Source: Nitriliruptoraceae bacterium
GTDB lineage: Bacteria > Actinomycetota > Nitriliruptoria > Nitriliruptorales > Nitriliruptoraceae
DNA length: 64,000 bases
Assembly (NCBI GenBank): GCA_003558435.1
Contig: PWLR01000019.1
Span: 1-64,000, forward strand
Direction: 5' to 3'
In this document: positions 11,566 through 27,779 of the stretch, in pieces
Position numbering within the stretch: position 1 is the first letter of the stretch
Layout of the letters: each line of letters begins with the position of its first letter
Made by a program: the position numbers and the translations under genes
Notes under the pieces: model-generated
Told to the model about the DNA's origin: nothing
The model's database searches: none
The model's input: the letters and a program-made list of their open reading frames with translations, nothing else

Positions 11566-12240
11566 ATGACCACGAGCACCGTGCCTCGCCGGGAGGCCAA
11601 GGACGCGCTCTACGAGGGGTTCGCGTCCATCGCCCGGGCGCTCGCGTCGGGCCGGCGGGCCGAGATCGTCGATCTGCTGTCCCAGGGCGAACGCACGGTC
11701 GAGGAGATCGCTCAGGAGATCGGCCAGTCGCTGGCCAACACCTCCCACCACCTACGTGCGCTCGCCCGGGCCCAGCTGGTGACCACCAGGCGTGCCGGCA
11801 CCCACATCCACTACCGGCTCACCTCGAACACCGTGGTCGACGCCTGGGTCGCGCTGCGTGATCTCGCCGCCGAGCGGCTGGACGAGTTCGACGAGCTCGC
11901 CACGGCCTACCTCGGCGACCGCCACGAGCTCGAGACCATCACCCGCGACGGCTTGCTCGCACGGCTCGAACGGGGCGATCTGGTGCTCATCGACGTGCGT
12001 CCGGACGCCGAATATGCCGCCGGACACATCCCCGGGGCCATCTCGACACCCCCGGCCCAACTCGGCGTCGCGCTCGATGGACTCCCCGACCAGGGCGACG
12101 TCGTCGCCTACTGCCGGGGCCCCTACTGCGTCTACGCCGACGATGCCGTGCGCACGTTGCGGGCCCGCGGCCGCCGGGCGCTGCGCCTCGAGGATGGCTT
12201 GCCCGAGTGGCGACGTGCCGGGGGCGCCATCGAGCCGTGA
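11566..12240 (+). CDS. ArsR-family HTH fused to a rhodanese domain
   Basis: N-terminal SLANTSHHLRALARAQLVTTRRAGTHIHY; C-terminal VLIDVRPDAEYAAGHIPGA...VAYCRGPYC. Confidence 0.9.
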   Translation: MTTSTVPRREAKDALYEGFASIARALASGRRAEIVDLLSQGERTVEEIAQEIGQSLANTSHHLRALARAQLVTTRRAGTHIHYRLTSNTVVDAWVALRDLAAERLDEFDELATAYLGDRHELETITRDGLLARLERGDLVLIDVRPDAEYAAGHIPGAISTPPAQLGVALDGLPDQGDVVAYCRGPYCVYADDAVRTLRARGRRALRLEDGLPEWRRAGGAIEP

Positions 12241-20445: not shown

Positions 20446-21423
20446 TCAGGTACAGCCGTTGATGATGGCGTGTAGGTAGGGGAGGTGGACGACGGCGCTG
20501 GTGGCGGCGATGGTTCCGAGTAGGAGCACGGAGACGCTGGCGGTCCCGGTGCTGGCCCCGGCTCGGGTCGGCGCGACGAGGTGCCTGATGCGGTCGGGCC
20601 CGGCCGCGTGGAGCACGGCCGGTGCGTTGTCGGCAGGTGACGGGCACGGTGTCGCCTCGCCGAGCTTGAGTAGGGCGCCGGCGAGGGCGGTGGTGCCGGT
20701 CCGCCTCCGTGCAGCATCGTCTGCCGCGATCTCGAGGTAGTGGGGAACGGCGTCGGCCGCGGCCGTGACGACGGGGGCCCACCGCAGTGGTACGGCGAGC
20801 GCGTCGAGGACGGTTCGGATGCTGTGGTGACGCTGGGTGAGGTGTGCCTGCTCGTGGGCGAGCACCGCTGCGAGCTCTCGTGGGGTGAGCACGGCGAGGG
20901 CGCCGTCGGAGACGACGGTCCCGGTGTGGCGCGGGTAGGCGATGGCGAAGGGGCGCGGATCGGGGACCCGCCAGACGGCATGCCCGTGGATGCGCTCGCG
21001 CGACGCGCCGACGAGCATCGCTCGCGCTGAAGCGCGCGTGGCGGCTCGTTGCTGCCGGGCGGCGCGGATGGCGCTGATCGCGATGCCGGCCGCGGTGAGC
21101 GCCGGCATCGCGAGCAGGGCCGGGGCAGGGATCGGGGTGTGCAGGAGCGGGCCGGCGAACGGGTTGGTGAGATCGAGACATCGTTGGCACAGTTCGGCAG
21201 CCGCACCACCCAGGATGGTCGGGCCGGAGAGCATCCAGGCGAGCAGCGGGCCGATCGCCAGCACGGCGAGGACCCATGCCGCGATGCTGCCGGCCCACAG
21301 CGCGGTGGCCAGGCGCGGGGCGCGAGCGAGAGCTGGCGATGCGTGGCGCAGCAACCACGGCGTGACGGTCGCGCCAGCGACCACGGTCAGCGTCAGCAGC
21401 GCCGGGACTCCGAAGACGGTCAC
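20446..21423 (-). CDS. M56/BlaR1-like membrane metallopeptidase
   Basis: LAAVLAHEQAHLTQRHH (HExxH) with flanking TM segments; overlaps blaI by 4 nt. Confidence 0.85.
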   Translation of the reverse strand: MTVFGVPALLTLTVVAGATVTPWLLRHASPALARAPRLATALWAGSIAAWVLAVLAIGPLLAWMLSGPTILGGAAAELCQRCLDLTNPFAGPLLHTPIPAPALLAMPALTAAGIAISAIRAARQQRAATRASARAMLVGASRERIHGHAVWRVPDPRPFAIAYPRHTGTVVSDGALAVLTPRELAAVLAHEQAHLTQRHHSIRTVLDALAVPLRWAPVVTAAADAVPHYLEIAADDAARRRTGTTALAGALLKLGEATPCPSPADNAPAVLHAAGPDRIRHLVAPTRAGASTGTASVSVLLLGTIAATSAVVHLPYLHAIINGCT

Positions 21424-21806
21424 GTGCCCTCACGCCCGTTGCGAGCGAGGTAGTCGCGGAGCAGCGCGAGATCGTCGGGCGCCATGCCCGCCGCGAAGTG
21501 CAGGATCGACGCACGACGATCGCTGCTGGTCGCCAAAGCGTGCTCCATCAGCATGGCCGCGTGCTCGTCGCGCGATCGTCGCGGACGGTGTCGAGCGGCG
21601 TTGCGCTCGCGGAAGGGCACGACCATGCCCTTGCGCTCGAGGTTGCGCAGCACCGTGGAGATCGTGGTGTACGCCGGATCGTGCGGGAGACGGTCGATCA
21701 CCTCGCGGACCGTTGAGGCGCCGTGGTCCCACAGCACGTCCATGACCTGCTGCTCGAGCGCACCCAGGCGGGGGGCGCTGGCGTCTGGTTGGGGGTCCTC
21801 ACTCAC
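21420..21806 (-). CDS. BlaI/MecI/CopY-family transcriptional regulator
   Basis: LGALEQQVMDVLWDHGASTVREVIDRLPHDPAYTTISTVLRNLERKGMV. Confidence 0.9.
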   Translation of the reverse strand: MSEDPQPDASAPRLGALEQQVMDVLWDHGASTVREVIDRLPHDPAYTTISTVLRNLERKGMVVPFRERNAARHRPRRSRDEHAAMLMEHALATSSDRRASILHFAAGMAPDDLALLRDYLARNGREGT

Positions 21807-22423
21807 GGTTCGACTCCTGGGGCTGCCGGGACGGCGCAGCTCACTTCGCCCTCCAGCCTACGGACCAACGCCCATCCCGACAGCCCGATGGCCGCCCCGG
21901 CGAGGTAGGGCTGGGCCGGAGCGAACCATGTGATCGCACCGCTGTAACCGAAGGCCAGGAGCGCGAGCTTGTTGCACACCGGGCAACCGACCGCGAACCA
22001 CGCCAACACCGCCCCGACGCTTCCCAGCCGACGATCCCGCCCATCACCTTCGGGGATGCGGTCGTCGGCCTCACCCTCGGTGCCGGTCGGAGACGACGCG
22101 GCCCGGCCGGGGCGCACGTAGGTCGCGACGAGCAGGCCGGTCAGCACCGAAGCCACGAGCCAGACCGGGTAGTTCCACGGCTCGGTCGGGATCTCGCGCC
22201 CGAAGACCGGGTTGGGGATCAGGACCGTTGGCACCCCGATCAGGACGGCAACGGCGAGGGCCGCGATGGCCGCCACCACCCAGCGGTACCCCGCCCAGGT
22301 CCGCAACGCCATCGCGGCCGTGCGCAGCGTCGAGGGCCGACCGGGACGGGGTTCGATGACGGGGGGCACAGGGGACCTTTCGGGGCACGTCGCCTCGTCG
22401 GGCGTGGCTCGCGGATTCGTCAT
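21803..22423 (-). CDS. Membrane protein with CPVC motif
   Basis: Three to four TM segments; WFAVGCPVCNKLALLAFGYSGAITWFAPAQPYLAG; overlaps blaI by 4 nt. Confidence 0.7.
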   Translation of the reverse strand: MTNPRATPDEATCPERSPVPPVIEPRPGRPSTLRTAAMALRTWAGYRWVVAAIAALAVAVLIGVPTVLIPNPVFGREIPTEPWNYPVWLVASVLTGLLVATYVRPGRAASSPTGTEGEADDRIPEGDGRDRRLGSVGAVLAWFAVGCPVCNKLALLAFGYSGAITWFAPAQPYLAGAAIGLSGWALVRRLEGEVSCAVPAAPGVEP

Positions 22424-22426
22424 CGA

Positions 22427-22459
22427 CTATCCGTCATAGTAGATTACTACGTCGGATAG
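22427..22459. promoter_or_regulatory. Long imperfect dyad CTATCCGTCATAGTA-GAT-TACTACGTCGGATAG, candidate BlaI operator
   Basis: 13 of 15 positions complementary, 3-nt spacer, between the divergent BlaI and DsbA operons. Confidence 0.65.
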
Positions 22460-22517
22460 TAGCCTGTCGGTCGACGTCGGCGGTCGACGCCGACACGACG
22501 GTACGAGGAGACGCGAT

Positions 22518-23255
22518 ATGCCTGCAGTGGAGAAACGGTCCGGGAAGCGCACGTGGGTGGCGCCTACGGTGGTGGCGGCCGTGTGTGCGGCGTTGCTGGC
22601 CTTCGCACTCACCGGAGGCGACCGATCCGAGCAGGCCGACGAGGGAGCGGCCGCCCCCTCGGAGCCCGGAGCGTATGGGGAGCAGCCCGCAGGCGAGGAG
22701 TCCCCTGCGCTGGCGCTGGAGCGGCGCGACCCGGACGATCCGCTCACCGATGGTCCGGTTGATGCGCCCATCACGATGGTGGTGTACTCCGACTACCAGT
22801 GCCCGTTCTGTGCCGGCTGGTCCCACGAGACCCTGCCCACGATGCGGGAGTACGCGGCGGCTGGCGAGCTGCGCATCGAGTGGCGCGACATCAACATCCT
22901 GAGCGAGGTCTCGGAGCGTGCGTCGATCGCGTCCTACGCGGCCGGGTTGCAAGGTCGCTTCTGGGAGTACCACGAGGCCTTGTTCCCGGAAGGTGAGATC
23001 CGATCTGCGTCGGAGCTGACCGATCAGGGGCTGGTCGAGCTGGCCGTCGAAGTCGGCTTGGACGAGGACCGGTTCGTCGAGGACATGACGGCGGCCGACA
23101 CCGTGGACGCGATCGACCGCAACGCCCAGGAGGGACTGGCGGCCGGGGTCTCCTCGACGCCCGCGTTCGTCCTCGACGGCCAGCCGATGCTCGGCGCCCA
23201 ACCGACCCCGGTGTTCGTCGAGATGATCGAGCAAGCACTCACGGACGGTGCCTGA
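22518..23255 (+). CDS. DsbA-family thiol oxidoreductase, membrane-anchored or secreted
   Basis: N-terminal TM; VVYSDYQCPFCAGWSHETLP; STPAFVLDGQ cis-Pro region. Confidence 0.9.
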   Translation: MPAVEKRSGKRTWVAPTVVAAVCAALLAFALTGGDRSEQADEGAAAPSEPGAYGEQPAGEESPALALERRDPDDPLTDGPVDAPITMVVYSDYQCPFCAGWSHETLPTMREYAAAGELRIEWRDINILSEVSERASIASYAAGLQGRFWEYHEALFPEGEIRSASELTDQGLVELAVEVGLDEDRFVEDMTAADTVDAIDRNAQEGLAAGVSSTPAFVLDGQPMLGAQPTPVFVEMIEQALTDGA

Positions 23256-24134
23256 GTGGAGGTCGGACTGGTCACCGCCTTCCTGGGCGGGACGCTGGCC
23301 TTGCTCAGTCCCTGCGGTGCCCTGCTGCTGCCGGCGTTCTTCGCCTCGACCATCGGCGCCACCTCCCGGCTGGCCGGTCATGCGACGGTCTTCTACGCCG
23401 GCCTCGTGCTTGCGCTCGCACCGCTCGGTCTGGCCGCTGGAACCCTCGGGTCGATCTTCGCCACGCACCGAAGCGCCGTGGTCACGGTCACCGCGGTCCT
23501 GCTGATCGGTCTCGGCATGCTGCAGGCGCTCGGCGGTGGCTTCGACATGGCTCGCCTGCTGCCGACGGCAGGCCGGCTGCCCGAGCACGCGGCGAAACGA
23601 CATGGTGTCGCCCGGACGTTCGCCCTCGGTGCCGCCAGCGGGCTGGTGGGGGTGTGCACCGGGCCGATCCTCGGGGCCGTGCTCACCCTCGCGGCGGCGC
23701 AGGGCGACGTCACCGCAGCCCTGACCCTGCTGGCCGTCTACGGGGCCGGGATGGTCATCCCGCTCGTGGTGCTGGCCGCCTTCTGGGAACGGATCGGTCC
23801 ACGCGGGCACCGGCTGCTTCGCGGCCGCAGCCTGCGGTTCGCACGGCGTGACTGGCACACGACCTCGCTCGTCGCGGGGGTGTTGCTCATCACGGTCGGG
23901 GTGGTGTTCTGGGTGACCAACGGGCTCGTCGGGGTTCCCGAACTCATCCCGGTCCACGTGCAGCTGCGGCTGCAGGGGCTCGCCGGTGCTGCGGGCACGA
24001 GGTTCGACGTCATCGCCATCGTGGCGATCGCGGTTGTCGCCTCGAGCGTGTGGGCCCTGCGACGGCGACGACCCGGTCCGCAACCTGACGCCGTCAGCGG
24101 GTCCGAACGACGATCATCCGAAGAACGCGCGTGA
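23256..24134 (+). CDS. CcdA/DsbD-like cytochrome c biogenesis membrane protein
   Basis: LLSPCGALLLPAFFAS and GLVGVCTGPILGAVLTLAA conserved Cys motifs; GTG start. Confidence 0.85.
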   Translation: MEVGLVTAFLGGTLALLSPCGALLLPAFFASTIGATSRLAGHATVFYAGLVLALAPLGLAAGTLGSIFATHRSAVVTVTAVLLIGLGMLQALGGGFDMARLLPTAGRLPEHAAKRHGVARTFALGAASGLVGVCTGPILGAVLTLAAAQGDVTAALTLLAVYGAGMVIPLVVLAAFWERIGPRGHRLLRGRSLRFARRDWHTTSLVAGVLLITVGVVFWVTNGLVGVPELIPVHVQLRLQGLAGAAGTRFDVIAIVAIAVVASSVWALRRRRPGPQPDAVSGSERRSSEERA

Positions 24135-25342
24135 GCCGGCCCTCCCCGCAAGGAGCTGCGGCCGGCACGGTGGCGGTGCTGTTGAGCGCCTGCACCCTGC
24201 TGCCCGGTAGCGGGTACCCGACCGGCATCGATCCAGAGATCCGCACGGACGGGACGCCCGCGCCGGCGATCGTGCTCGACTCCGTCGAGCTACCCGAACC
24301 ACTCGTCGACCGCGAACTGGTCGACCTCGGGTGGGACGCCGTTCCCGAGGAGTCCGCCGGGGTTTTCCTCGGTCTTGGCCAGATCACCGACGACGCCCTA
24401 CGACTCTCCGCGGTCACCGAAGAGGGCATGGTCCTGTGGACCACCGAGCGTCCATTGTCGTGCGCCGGGTTCGCGCTCACCGCGGACAGCGATCGGCTCC
24501 TCGCGGTGCTCACCGACGTCTCACCCGGCAGGGCCTCGGTCGCCGTGACCACCGCCAGTGCCTACGACCTTCACACCGGCGAACAGATCTGGGGCCCGGT
24601 CGAGGTGCCAGGCCCGCACGCCGGCCCCGGACTCGTGTTCGCCACGCTCCCGACCGGAGGTGCGATGGGCAGCAGCGGGCCACGCGTCGCACTCGACCCG
24701 GCGACCGGGACCGTGTCCGCAACCGAGGACGAGCTCGACGGTGCTCGACTGGTGGGCGAGTACCACGGCACCCTGCTGATCGTCGATCACGAGCACCTGC
24801 TCGCCCACGACACCAACGACGGCCGCGAACGGTGGCGCCTGCCGCTCGCCGACCTCGACCTCCACGACGCAGCCCAGGTGGCCGCAGCACCGGACAGCAC
24901 CCCCGGCCCCGGGCTCGCGTTCGTCGGCGACCGCGACACCGGCTACGCGCTGGTCGACCTCATCGCGGGGAGCATCGTCACAACCGCCGCACTGGGCGCC
25001 GCCACCGACCCCAGCACGAACGTGCACGTCACCATCGATCATGACCAGCTGTACGGCCACGACATGGACGGCGACCCGATCTGGGACCACGCGATCGAGC
25101 CCGGGACCCGGATCGCCAGCGCCGGCAACGGTGTCCTCTACCTCCTGACCGCCGGCAACATCCACACCCGCGACACCGAAACCGGCCAACCCCTCGGGGT
25201 CTACGAAGACCCCCGCACCACCAACGCAGCCCTGCCCCGACACATCGACGACGCAGGCGCCGCCGTCCTCGAAACCTCCCAAGGCTTCCTGCTCGCCACC
25301 ATCAACCCGGTCGGAACCACCGCCGCACCGACGGGACCGTGA
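24131..25342 (+). CDS. PQQ-like beta-propeller lipoprotein
   Basis: Lipobox AVLLSAC; repeats of propeller type (GEQIWGPVEV, GRERWRLPLADL). Confidence 0.75.
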   Translation: MSRPSPQGAAAGTVAVLLSACTLLPGSGYPTGIDPEIRTDGTPAPAIVLDSVELPEPLVDRELVDLGWDAVPEESAGVFLGLGQITDDALRLSAVTEEGMVLWTTERPLSCAGFALTADSDRLLAVLTDVSPGRASVAVTTASAYDLHTGEQIWGPVEVPGPHAGPGLVFATLPTGGAMGSSGPRVALDPATGTVSATEDELDGARLVGEYHGTLLIVDHEHLLAHDTNDGRERWRLPLADLDLHDAAQVAAAPDSTPGPGLAFVGDRDTGYALVDLIAGSIVTTAALGAATDPSTNVHVTIDHDQLYGHDMDGDPIWDHAIEPGTRIASAGNGVLYLLTAGNIHTRDTETGQPLGVYEDPRTTNAALPRHIDDAGAAVLETSQGFLLATINPVGTTAAPTGP

Positions 25343-26901
25343 TCGGCGTCGTCACGCGAGACGCACCGGCTGGCGCGATGCGCGCGCCCGCCGCGCCACT
25401 GGGTCCGACGGCGATGATCATCCGGCTGATCGCGGCGGGAGCTGGTGGCGCTCTGACCGGCACTGCGGTGCTCACCGGCTGGTGGGCGGTCGCGGTCATC
25501 GGCACCGGGGTGGTCGCCAGCGCGGTGCACGACATCCGCCCGGCACGTCGTGCCATGGTCGGGACCGCAGCCGGCTGCGTGCACGCGACCGTCACCACCC
25601 TGTGGGCCTCGCAGTTCAACGCCTCCGCAGCCGCTGCGCTGATCCTCATCCAGGCTGCCGGATGGGGACTGGCCGCGCTGGCCGTCTCCATGCGCGCACG
25701 CTGGCCGTGGCCGCTCGCCCCGGCGCTAGCGATCTCCGAATGGGCACGCACCCACTGGCCGCTTGGGGGCTATCCCCTCGCCCAGCTGTGGCTCACCCAA
25801 GCCGACGGACCGCTCGCCGCGCTCGCACCACTGCTCGGCCCCTTCGCGATCACCGCTGCGATCGTGCTCCTTGCCACCGCCGGCATCGCCGCACTGCAGC
25901 GACGACCCGCAGCGATCCGCGTCCTCGCCGCATCGCTGATCACGGTCGGTGCCGCTCAGCTGGCGCCGATCCCATCACCGGTCGCGCCGATGGAGGTCGC
26001 TGCGGTCCAAGGCGGCGACCGGCGCGGCGTCCCGGCCATGCGCAACGACCCCGGCCCTCTGCTTGAACGTCAGATCGATCTCACCCGGTCGCTCGACACC
26101 GACGTCGACCTCGTCGTGTGGCCCGAGAGCGCGCTCGCCGTACACGGCGCGATGACGACCGGTGACCGCCGACTTCTCCAGGAGCTCGCTGATGGGTTCG
26201 ACGGCGTGCTGATCGCCGGAGTCGTCGAGCGCTTCGACCTCCCCGACGGCGCAGGCTGGTTCCGCAACGCCGCGGTTGCGAGCGACGAGACCGGCACGCT
26301 CGACCGGTACGACAAGCAGCTCCCCGTACCGTTCGGCGAACGCGTTCCAGCACGACGGTTCGTCGAACTGGTCGTCGACCTCTCGCTCGTCCCGCGCGAC
26401 ATGGTCGCCGGTAGCGGCCCGCCGATCCTACGTACGGAACACGCTGACGTCGGTATCGCCATCTCCTACGAGAACCTCTTCCCCCGTGTCGCGCGGCAAG
26501 CCGTGCTCCAAGGCGCTGACATCCTCGCCGTTCCCACCCTCGCATCCTCCTACGTCACCGATGAGATCCCCACCCAACAGCTCGCCGCCGCACGGATGCG
26601 TGCCCGCGAAACCGGCCGGGACCTCGCCATCGTCGGATCGACCGGTCCCACGGCCCTCATCCGCGCAGATGGCACGCTCGCTGCCCAAGCACCAACCGAC
26701 ACACCCCACGTCGCCCAGGCAAGGCTCCAGACACGGTCGGGCACCACCCTGTACACGCGTTACGGCGACGCCCTACCACTGGCTGCAGCCGCGCTCGTGC
26801 TGTCCATGACCGCCCGGAGACCGGCTCCGCGCCCGCTCCATGCGGGCCTACCCGCCGAACCCGAGCATCTGGCAGCTCGACGCCAAGAACGACGACCGTG
26901 A
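25339..26901 (+). CDS. Apolipoprotein N-acyltransferase (Lnt)-like protein with Ser at the nucleophile position
   Basis: TM-rich N-terminus; nitrilase-domain motifs VVWPESALAV, YDKQLPVPFGE, and AISYENLFP where Cys is expected. Confidence 0.8.
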   Translation: MIGVVTRDAPAGAMRAPAAPLGPTAMIIRLIAAGAGGALTGTAVLTGWWAVAVIGTGVVASAVHDIRPARRAMVGTAAGCVHATVTTLWASQFNASAAAALILIQAAGWGLAALAVSMRARWPWPLAPALAISEWARTHWPLGGYPLAQLWLTQADGPLAALAPLLGPFAITAAIVLLATAGIAALQRRPAAIRVLAASLITVGAAQLAPIPSPVAPMEVAAVQGGDRRGVPAMRNDPGPLLERQIDLTRSLDTDVDLVVWPESALAVHGAMTTGDRRLLQELADGFDGVLIAGVVERFDLPDGAGWFRNAAVASDETGTLDRYDKQLPVPFGERVPARRFVELVVDLSLVPRDMVAGSGPPILRTEHADVGIAISYENLFPRVARQAVLQGADILAVPTLASSYVTDEIPTQQLAAARMRARETGRDLAIVGSTGPTALIRADGTLAAQAPTDTPHVAQARLQTRSGTTLYTRYGDALPLAAAALVLSMTARRPAPRPLHAGLPAEPEHLAARRQERRP

Positions 26902-27292
26902 AGGCACCATCGCGCTCGAGACCCGCACCATCACCGTGTTGCACGATCACCGCGAGCGGCAACTCGACGTGCGGCGCGCCGCCGGCCCCGTCTGGTCGAC
27001 ACAGCCACAGGATCACGACCTGGTGTTCACCCGCCCCGACGGCGGCGCCATCCCGCCCAAGCGCGCCTCACGGATGTTCACCCGCCACGTCGACGCCGCC
27101 GGCCTACCCCGCTCCGGCGTCCACGGCCTCCGTCACAGCTGGGCCACACTGGCGCGCCGGTGTCCCCATCAAGGTCGTTTCCGAGCGCATGGTCGCGCCG
27201 ACCCCGCCGTGACCATGCAGGTGTACGCCCACGCCCTCGAAGGCGACGACGCCACCGCCGCCGAGACCACAACCATCTTCGACGACCGATGA
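26860..27292 (+). pseudogene. Tyrosine recombinase/integrase C-terminal remnant with two frameshifts
   Basis: GVHGLRHSWATLA (frame A), RAGVPIKVVSERM (frame B), then ADPAVTMQVYAHALEGDDA (frame A): conserved recombinase order split over frames. Confidence 0.8.
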
Positions 27293-27375
27293 TCACCAGC
27301 GGGCACGACAACCGACCCGCAACAACGCGGTGTCACGACCCTCATGGTGCCGCGAGGGGGTCCAGCACGCAGAAA

Positions 27376-27399
27376 CGCCCCCGCGGTGTGGCGGGGGCG
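27376..27399. terminator. Hairpin CGCCCCCGC-ggtgtg-GCGGGGGCG
   Basis: Perfect 9-bp GC stem between the integrase remnant and the tRNA. Confidence 0.5.
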
Positions 27400-27448
27400 C
27401 TGCTGCGATTCTGCCGGATCCGGGCCGGTAGACCAGCCGACGCGATCG

Positions 27449-27532
27449 TGGGCGGAGGGGGACTTGAACCCCCATGTCCATAAGGACACACGGACCTGAA
27501 CCGTGCGCGTCTGCCAATTCCGCCACCCGCCC
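27449..27532 (-). tRNA. tRNA-Leu(CAG)
   Basis: Minus strand GGGCGGGTGGCGGAATTGGCAGACGCGCACGGTTCAGGTCCGTGTG...GGGGGTTCAAGTCCCCCTCCGCCCA; acceptor pairs GGGCGGG/TCCGCCC, long variable arm, anticodon CAG. Confidence 0.95.
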
Positions 27533-27779
27533 AGGGGTGAAGCAGCGGAGCGTACCAACGTCAGAGCCAGGTCACCAACGCAGTTCCCTCGGACCGATGC
27601 CCGACCGATACGGGTGGCCCACTCGCCGCAGAGCGTGACGTTCGGACGGGTCGAACTGGACGGGCTCTGAGCTACTCTCCGCGCGCGGGCTTAGGGGTGA
27701 ACACGCTGCCCGTGACCAGGCTGGAGACGACCCGTCCCAGCCTCGTCCGACCCCGCTGATGATCCGGACCGGTGCTGCA

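Follow-up and report, generated by a model that had tools for sequence, protein, structure and literature searches.

A putative cysteine-switched BlaR1/BlaI-type relay adjoining a DsbA–CcdA thiol module in a Nitriliruptoraceae bacterium

In the BlaR1–BlaI and MecR1–MecI systems of Staphylococcus aureus, a divergent operon with dyad operators is controlled by a BlaI-family repressor and a membrane zinc protease. In BlaR1 the protease motif includes H201 and E242, and the extracytoplasmic loop between transmembrane helices 2 and 3 (EL1, residues 56–96) is the signalling loop, which lies in the groove of the sensor domain and is displaced on binding of a β-lactam (PMC9834060). The window analysed here, positions 1–64,000 of contig PWLR01000019.1 from a Nitriliruptoraceae bacterium (Actinomycetota; GCA_003558435.1), contains at 20446–26901 a seven-gene module that resembles these systems in its divergent operons, BlaI-family repressor, protease HExxH...ExxxD spacing, EL1 and dyad operators, but differs from them in lacking a C-terminal β-lactam sensor and a β-lactamase or PBP2a, and in having a CxxC motif in EL1 together with a tail cysteine, an operator of the form ACTAT-N5-ATAGT and a thiol-relay output. 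No description of the module was found in the freely readable literature on BlaI with CcdA, DsbA, M56 or persulfide. From its sequence, we read the module as a self-contained, mobile BlaR1/BlaI-type relay that would be switched by cysteines and would control a DsbA–CcdA reducing relay, a reading to which we assign a probability of roughly 0.55.

All seven open reading frames were verified at their coordinates and strands, three on the minus and four on the plus strand, and they form two divergent operons in which the internal junctions are four overlaps of 4 bp and one abutment (21423/21420, 21806/21803, 23255/23256, 24134/24131 and 25342/25339). An earlier note on this DNA had described this arrangement correctly, and its protein names agree with Pfam (Penicillinase_R, DSBA/Thioredoxin_4, DsbD_TM, PQQ_2 and CN_hydrolase) and, for lnt, with NCBIfam; beyond what it described are the tandem operator, the cysteines of M56 and, at the right edge, an integrase remnant with a tRNA-Leu. 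The genes are as follows.

20446–21423, minus: M56/BlaR1-type membrane zinc peptidase, 325 residues, four predicted transmembrane helices, without a β-lactam sensor domain
21420–21806, minus: BlaI/MecI-family repressor, 128 residues, no cysteine (Pfam Penicillinase_R, E 1e-23)
21803–22423, minus: CPVC membrane protein, no Pfam or NCBIfam model
22518–23255, plus: membrane-anchored DsbA/thioredoxin-fold protein (Pfam Thioredoxin_4/DSBA, E 1e-16)
23256–24134, plus: CcdA/DsbD_TM-type thiol electron carrier with C20 and C134 (DsbD_TM, E 4e-13)
24131–25342, plus: PQQ_2 β-propeller lipoprotein, lipobox LSAC with Cys21 (PQQ_2, E 1.5e-6)
25339–26901, plus: Lnt-like CN_hydrolase membrane protein (CN_hydrolase, E 3e-17)

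Conservation of this neighbourhood was examined in 80 loci, nearly all actinobacterial, from a search of genome contigs with the CPVC protein alone as bait, so that the prevalence of CPVC in them is by construction and the linkage of the other genes is not. BlaI, M56, DsbA and CcdA occupy window-like positions in the same divergent layout in 48 of the 80 loci, 26 of which additionally contain the propeller lipoprotein, and 16 of the 80 carry none of the other five window proteins at window-like positions. The gene linkage thus exceeds chance and is not a local accident, and the homologues are not unlinked in all other genomes. The DsbA–CcdA pair is doubled in some Dietzia loci. A larger set of 99 loci, which includes plasmids, was used for some of the counts given below.

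The divergent intergenic region is 94 bp in length and holds a 35-bp palindrome that resolves into two copies of ACTAT-N5-ATAGT.

22426–22440: predicted BlaI-type operator 1, exact
22446–22460: predicted BlaI-type operator 2, one mismatch, 20 bp from operator 1

Among 59 homologous divergent regions, 57 hold at least one copy with no more than one mismatch and 55 hold at least two copies with no more than two mismatches, usually 16 or 17 bp apart. The exact operator occurs 118 times in 1.43 Mb of loci and never in shuffled sequence, and is present in 59/68 loci with BlaI versus 2/31 without BlaI (Fisher p = 7e-15). The sole exact site in the window's genome is at the module. In five further genomes, among them that of Nocardia carnea (7.5 Mb), every exact site is located either at the module or at one additional place near it, and a reversed control pattern gives 0 or 1 sites there. 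The Rhodococcus plasmid pRB29 carries four other BlaI paralogues and seven operator sites, some before its lnt and tlpA genes, so the operator is a BlaI-family motif that is not exclusive to the BlaI of the module. BlaI-type operators also precede genes of the CstR type, both in Brevibacterium and in the near-identical islands described below. In Clostridium thermocellum, BlaI proteins with very small self-contained regulons bind inverted GTCTAT/GACTAT half-sites that are 5 nt apart and arranged in two dyads (PMC8457756); judged by sequence, the module operator is of the same design, whereas no DsbA, CcdA or CPVC genes are reported in those regulons. The Penicillinase_R domain of the window BlaI is above the cut-off, and its score against the CopY model TIGR02698 is far below the cut-off; CopY-type metal sensing by this protein was rejected because it has no cysteine and so lacks the C-terminal cysteine metal-binding motif. 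A scan of the intergenic region for a sigma-70 promoter and a terminator found nothing.

The window peptidase is above the Pfam cut-off for M48 and below that for M56 (E 4e-4), and was grouped with the M56/BlaR1 type on the basis of its BlaI neighbour, its motif spacing and a fold comparison. Three of its features bear on the proposed switch.

20842–20856, minus: zinc-binding HEQAH motif, residues 190–194
21178–21189, minus: CQRC (C79 and C82) in the predicted extracytoplasmic loop EL1
20452–20454, minus: C324, the cysteine of the C-terminal tail

Residues H190, E191, H194, E231 and D235 are kept in more than 90% of 61 module M56 members and are invariant in a 45-row alignment, and the 41 residues that separate HExxH from ExxxD (H190/E231) equal the spacing of H201 and E242 in BlaR1. 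The structure model (predicted local distance difference test, pLDDT, 89; predicted TM-score, pTM, 0.86) has BlaR1 entries among its best structural matches, with a probability of 0.99–1.0, weak TM-scores of 0.31–0.37 and E of about 0.1. C79 is present in 61/61 and C82 in 60/61 of the aligned module proteins, and C324 in 56 of the 58 that have residues at that position. The EL1 CxxC was found in 60/61 module M56s versus 0/33 non-module M56s, with those of copper islands among the controls. Among these 33, an EL1 cysteine and a tail cysteine occur together in 15, neither occurs in 14 and a single one occurs in four (p = 1.6e-5), which suggests that the two meet; the non-module EL1 cysteine, where alignable, usually matches C82. 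A disulfide between EL1 and the tail may therefore exist in a wider class of sensor-less M56s, to which the module would add C79 as part of a possibly exchangeable switch. BlaI–M56 pairs of copper islands and plasmids (L220:7450–10055 and L222–L224) have the EL1 and tail cysteines and no CxxC. The window's genome has a second BlaI–M56 pair (L127:2433–4168, G000:C182), which is 36–38% identical and in which the loop is without CxxC.

The peptidase chain stops about 13 residues past the fourth transmembrane helix and matches only M48/M56 in Pfam, without a penicillin-binding (SxxK) sensor domain. Together with the absence of a β-lactamase or penicillin-binding protein (PBP) from the conserved set, this agrees with the proposal of the earlier note that this is not a β-lactamase locus. 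It also bears on a cell-wall or β-lactam response, in which M56 would sense envelope damage and the thiol proteins would serve generic envelope repair: the history of the BlaI/M56 family and the presence of Lnt and the propeller lipoprotein in some loci speak for such a response, but with no sensor domain, neither β-lactamase nor PBP in the conserved set, a CxxC that is specific to the module and neighbours that are sulfur-related, we consider it very improbable.

The cysteines of the putative output proteins are likewise conserved.

22800–22811, plus: CPFC motif of DsbA, both cysteines in 68/68
21974–21985, minus: CPVC motif (C147 and C150), both cysteines in 97/97 members
21836–21838, minus: third cysteine of the CPVC protein, C196, in 96/97 members

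T214-P215 of the window DsbA is conserved, and the two cysteines of CcdA are found in 66/67 (one gap) and 67/67 proteins. Because export of reducing equivalents is the task of CcdA-type proteins, a reductase or isomerase role is predicted to be likelier for the DsbA-type protein of the module than that of an oxidase. SoxV/SoxW of sulfur oxidisers, a CcdA-type carrier plus a thioredoxin, offers a parallel from a sulfur setting, since electrons likewise pass from a CcdA-type membrane protein to a thioredoxin-fold protein outside the cytoplasm; the module differs in that no Sox genes were seen and in its control by BlaI. The CPVC protein matched no Pfam or NCBIfam family, and sequence and fold searches for relatives in the PDB gave no usable match; its structure model has a pLDDT of 77 and a pTM of 0.69, and the structure-model alignment was built without plasmid-derived rows. 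Its true start is probably downstream of 22423, because the operator is only 2 bp from that codon. Standalone CPVC genes have rhodanese and thioredoxin-fold genes as their commonest neighbours, in small counts. A CPVC-family relative is encoded in a haloarchaeal plasmid (L218:4908–5402) near TlpA, CcdA, SCO and copper genes.

In the propeller lipoprotein alignment, the columns of Cys21 and Cys111 hold cysteine in 31/39 and 33/39 proteins, respectively. The module could alternatively serve to assemble a single extracytoplasmic redox protein (the propeller or an unlinked client), with DsbA–CcdA keeping its cysteine reduced and CPVC delivering a cofactor or sulfur. The PQQ_2 lipoprotein follows CcdA in many loci and its Cys111 is conserved, and DsbD_TM proteins act in cytochrome and Sox maturation, but the propeller is missing from more than half of the loci and the M56 cysteines would be left unexplained, so we judge such a pathway improbable. 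The Lnt-like protein scores 152.4 bits against NCBIfam lnt TIGR00546 (cut-off 132.9) and keeps the glutamate and lysine of the catalytic triad, with serine in place of the nucleophile cysteine (26464–26466), so acyltransferase activity is not to be assumed. Decay specific to the window was rejected as the origin of this serine, as 10 of the 11 closest homologues examined also have it; they belong to an actinobacterial Lnt-like subfamily with serine for the catalytic cysteine (L145–L153 and L155). Lnt is linked in 9/99 loci, including plasmids; where it accompanies other modules, the nucleophile cysteine is retained.

Near the module or CPVC genes are found CstR-like repressors, MBL-rhodanese persulfide dioxygenases (PDOs), rhodaneses, TauE, TrxA, DsrE and DUF302. 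Strong PDO matches occur in 9/80 loci, or in six once near-identical islands are merged, where a rough estimate from the PDO density in 18 genomes predicts about 0.4. Except for some in three loci close to P-type ATPases, the neighbouring repressors lack the CsoR histidine and are thus of the CstR type. In Streptomyces coelicolor the same set of CsoR-like repressor, PDO, rhodanese and TauE controls sulfane sulfur (PMC7533328), and the genes of this circuit and of S. aureus CstR/cst recur beside the module; those circuits are cytoplasmic and sense through a persulfidated repressor, whereas the module is membrane-based. Polysulfides oxidise DsbA and periplasmic thiols, driving disulfide formation (PMC11921322). 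In the window's genome, a CstR-like repressor (53% identical to that of pAD51) is encoded near a probable DUF302 gene (L226:1682–3280, G000:C247), and within the window, about 10 kb from the module, an ArsR-type helix–turn–helix is fused to a rhodanese domain as a sulfur-related regulator (11566–12240, plus).

The module can also be compared with ScsABCD (suppressor of copper sensitivity), which is stress-linked and in which a DsbA-like protein is paired with a DsbD-type membrane reductase; by Pfam, the DsbA-like gene of the module adjoins a DsbD-type carrier gene. The module differs in having BlaI/M56 and CPVC, a CcdA-type protein instead of a full ScsB, and sulfur neighbours that outnumber copper ones. 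An Scs-like tolerance of copper or another soft metal would have the M56 cysteines and CPVC bind Cu(I), with DsbA–CcdA repairing metal-damaged disulfides like ScsC/ScsB. Roles in copper resistance or Cu(I) binding are described for ScsC proteins (PMC5524982, PMC8900818), and a heavy-metal P-type ATPase is present in 13/99 loci, but CxxC is missing from the M56s of copper islands, ACTAT-N5-ATAGT is absent from loci L220, L112 and L218, the metalloregulator beside a full module is usually of the CstR and not the CsoR type, and the window module has no copper oxidase or pump. We therefore regard this explanation as unlikely; copper as the sole signal is weakened by the lack of CxxC and of the operator at the copper islands.

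Islands that are 97–99.9% identical over 7.5–16.5 kb are found in Thermocrispum, Cellulosimicrobium, Microlunatus, Haematomicrobium and Microbacterium, including a plasmid, indicating that the module moves between genera by recent horizontal spread; most of these islands (L048, L054–L057 and L111) also carry sulfur genes and lnt. Two features in the window mark the right edge.

26840–27292, plus: tyrosine-integrase remnant (C-terminal part), at the edge of the accessory segment
27448–27532, minus: tRNA-Leu(cag), adjoining the integrase remnant

At 80% DNA identity, this segment to the right of Lnt (26840–27560) recurs in another genome of the genus, in which the genes to its left, including the module, were not found at the corresponding place, so the module lies in an accessory region and the edge formed by the tRNA-Leu and integrase remnant is an integration hotspot. 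The tRNA-Leu island showed no att repeat within the window.

Beside the observed conservation of linkage, operator and cysteines, we infer the identity of the signal, the cleavage of BlaI, the polarity and the reset in the following scheme. BlaI dimers would occupy the two conserved tandem sites and, judging by the BlaI family, repress both operons. By analogy with BlaR1 and from hydropathy, M56 would sit in the membrane with its zinc site on the cytosolic side and the EL1 CxxC and C-terminal cysteine outside, and in resting cells its thiols would be reduced or in one disulfide state. Polysulfide or persulfide, other oxidants or soft metals may alter this state, upon which EL1 would shift as in BlaR1 and the M56 protease would cleave BlaI. 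The derepressed promoters would then yield the CPVC protein, the regulator pair and DsbA–CcdA; going by their families, DsbA–CcdA would bring cytosolic reducing equivalents to extracytoplasmic thiols, and the propeller lipoprotein, here together with the Lnt-like protein, would be an accessory or client. Re-reduction of the M56 cysteines by DsbA–CcdA would switch the system off. The module may thus form the outside arm of the cytoplasmic sulfane-sulfur circuit (CstR-like, PDO, rhodanese and TauE) that it adjoins in several genomes.

Several points weigh against this scheme. The fold match of M56 to BlaR1 is weak, the membrane sidedness of the CxxC is likewise taken from BlaR1 and hydropathy, and three cysteines are able to form disulfides but also to bind metal. 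The expectation for PDO is a rough one, a strong CstR, PDO or TauE match lies nearby in only 17/80 loci, and CstR, PDO, rhodanese and TauE are absent beside the window module, with the CstR-like and PDO homologues of this genome elsewhere. CPVC relatives also neighbour genes for multicopper oxidases or P-type ATPases, the former in Natrinema, M. chubuense and pRB29, which makes copper a possible signal.

In conclusion, the proposal of the earlier note, a signal-responsive module for extracytoplasmic thiol and lipoprotein handling, is upheld in part. A single signal-responsive module is supported by the conserved linkage and the shared dedicated operator, and extracytoplasmic thiols are its probable subject in view of the CxxC of the M56 loop, the CPVC protein, DsbA–CcdA and the recurrent sulfane-sulfur neighbours, so that the core idea of an envelope thiol-stress module under BlaI–M56 control is now better supported; lipoprotein handling as a core function is not, because of the rarity of linked Lnt and the serine at its nucleophile position in the window. 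It is possible, at somewhat less than even odds, that the module represents a novel type of redox receptor spanning the membrane, in which an extracytoplasmic switch of three cysteines, the CxxC of the signal loop and the one in the tail, replaces the antibiotic-sensing domain of a BlaR1-type protease, the persulfide or disulfide state of the envelope is read through BlaI proteolysis, and DsbA–CcdA and CPVC serve as output and reset. For the input of sensor-less M56/BlaI pairs, the search is reduced here to one promoter and three cysteines whose positions are defined. If the proposed reading is true, the BlaR1 relay would be a general chassis with a swappable input, actinobacteria would have a membrane-borne means of sensing sulfur or thiol stress outside the cytoplasm, and the CPVC family, which has no Pfam model and also occurs in haloarchaea, would gain a working context.

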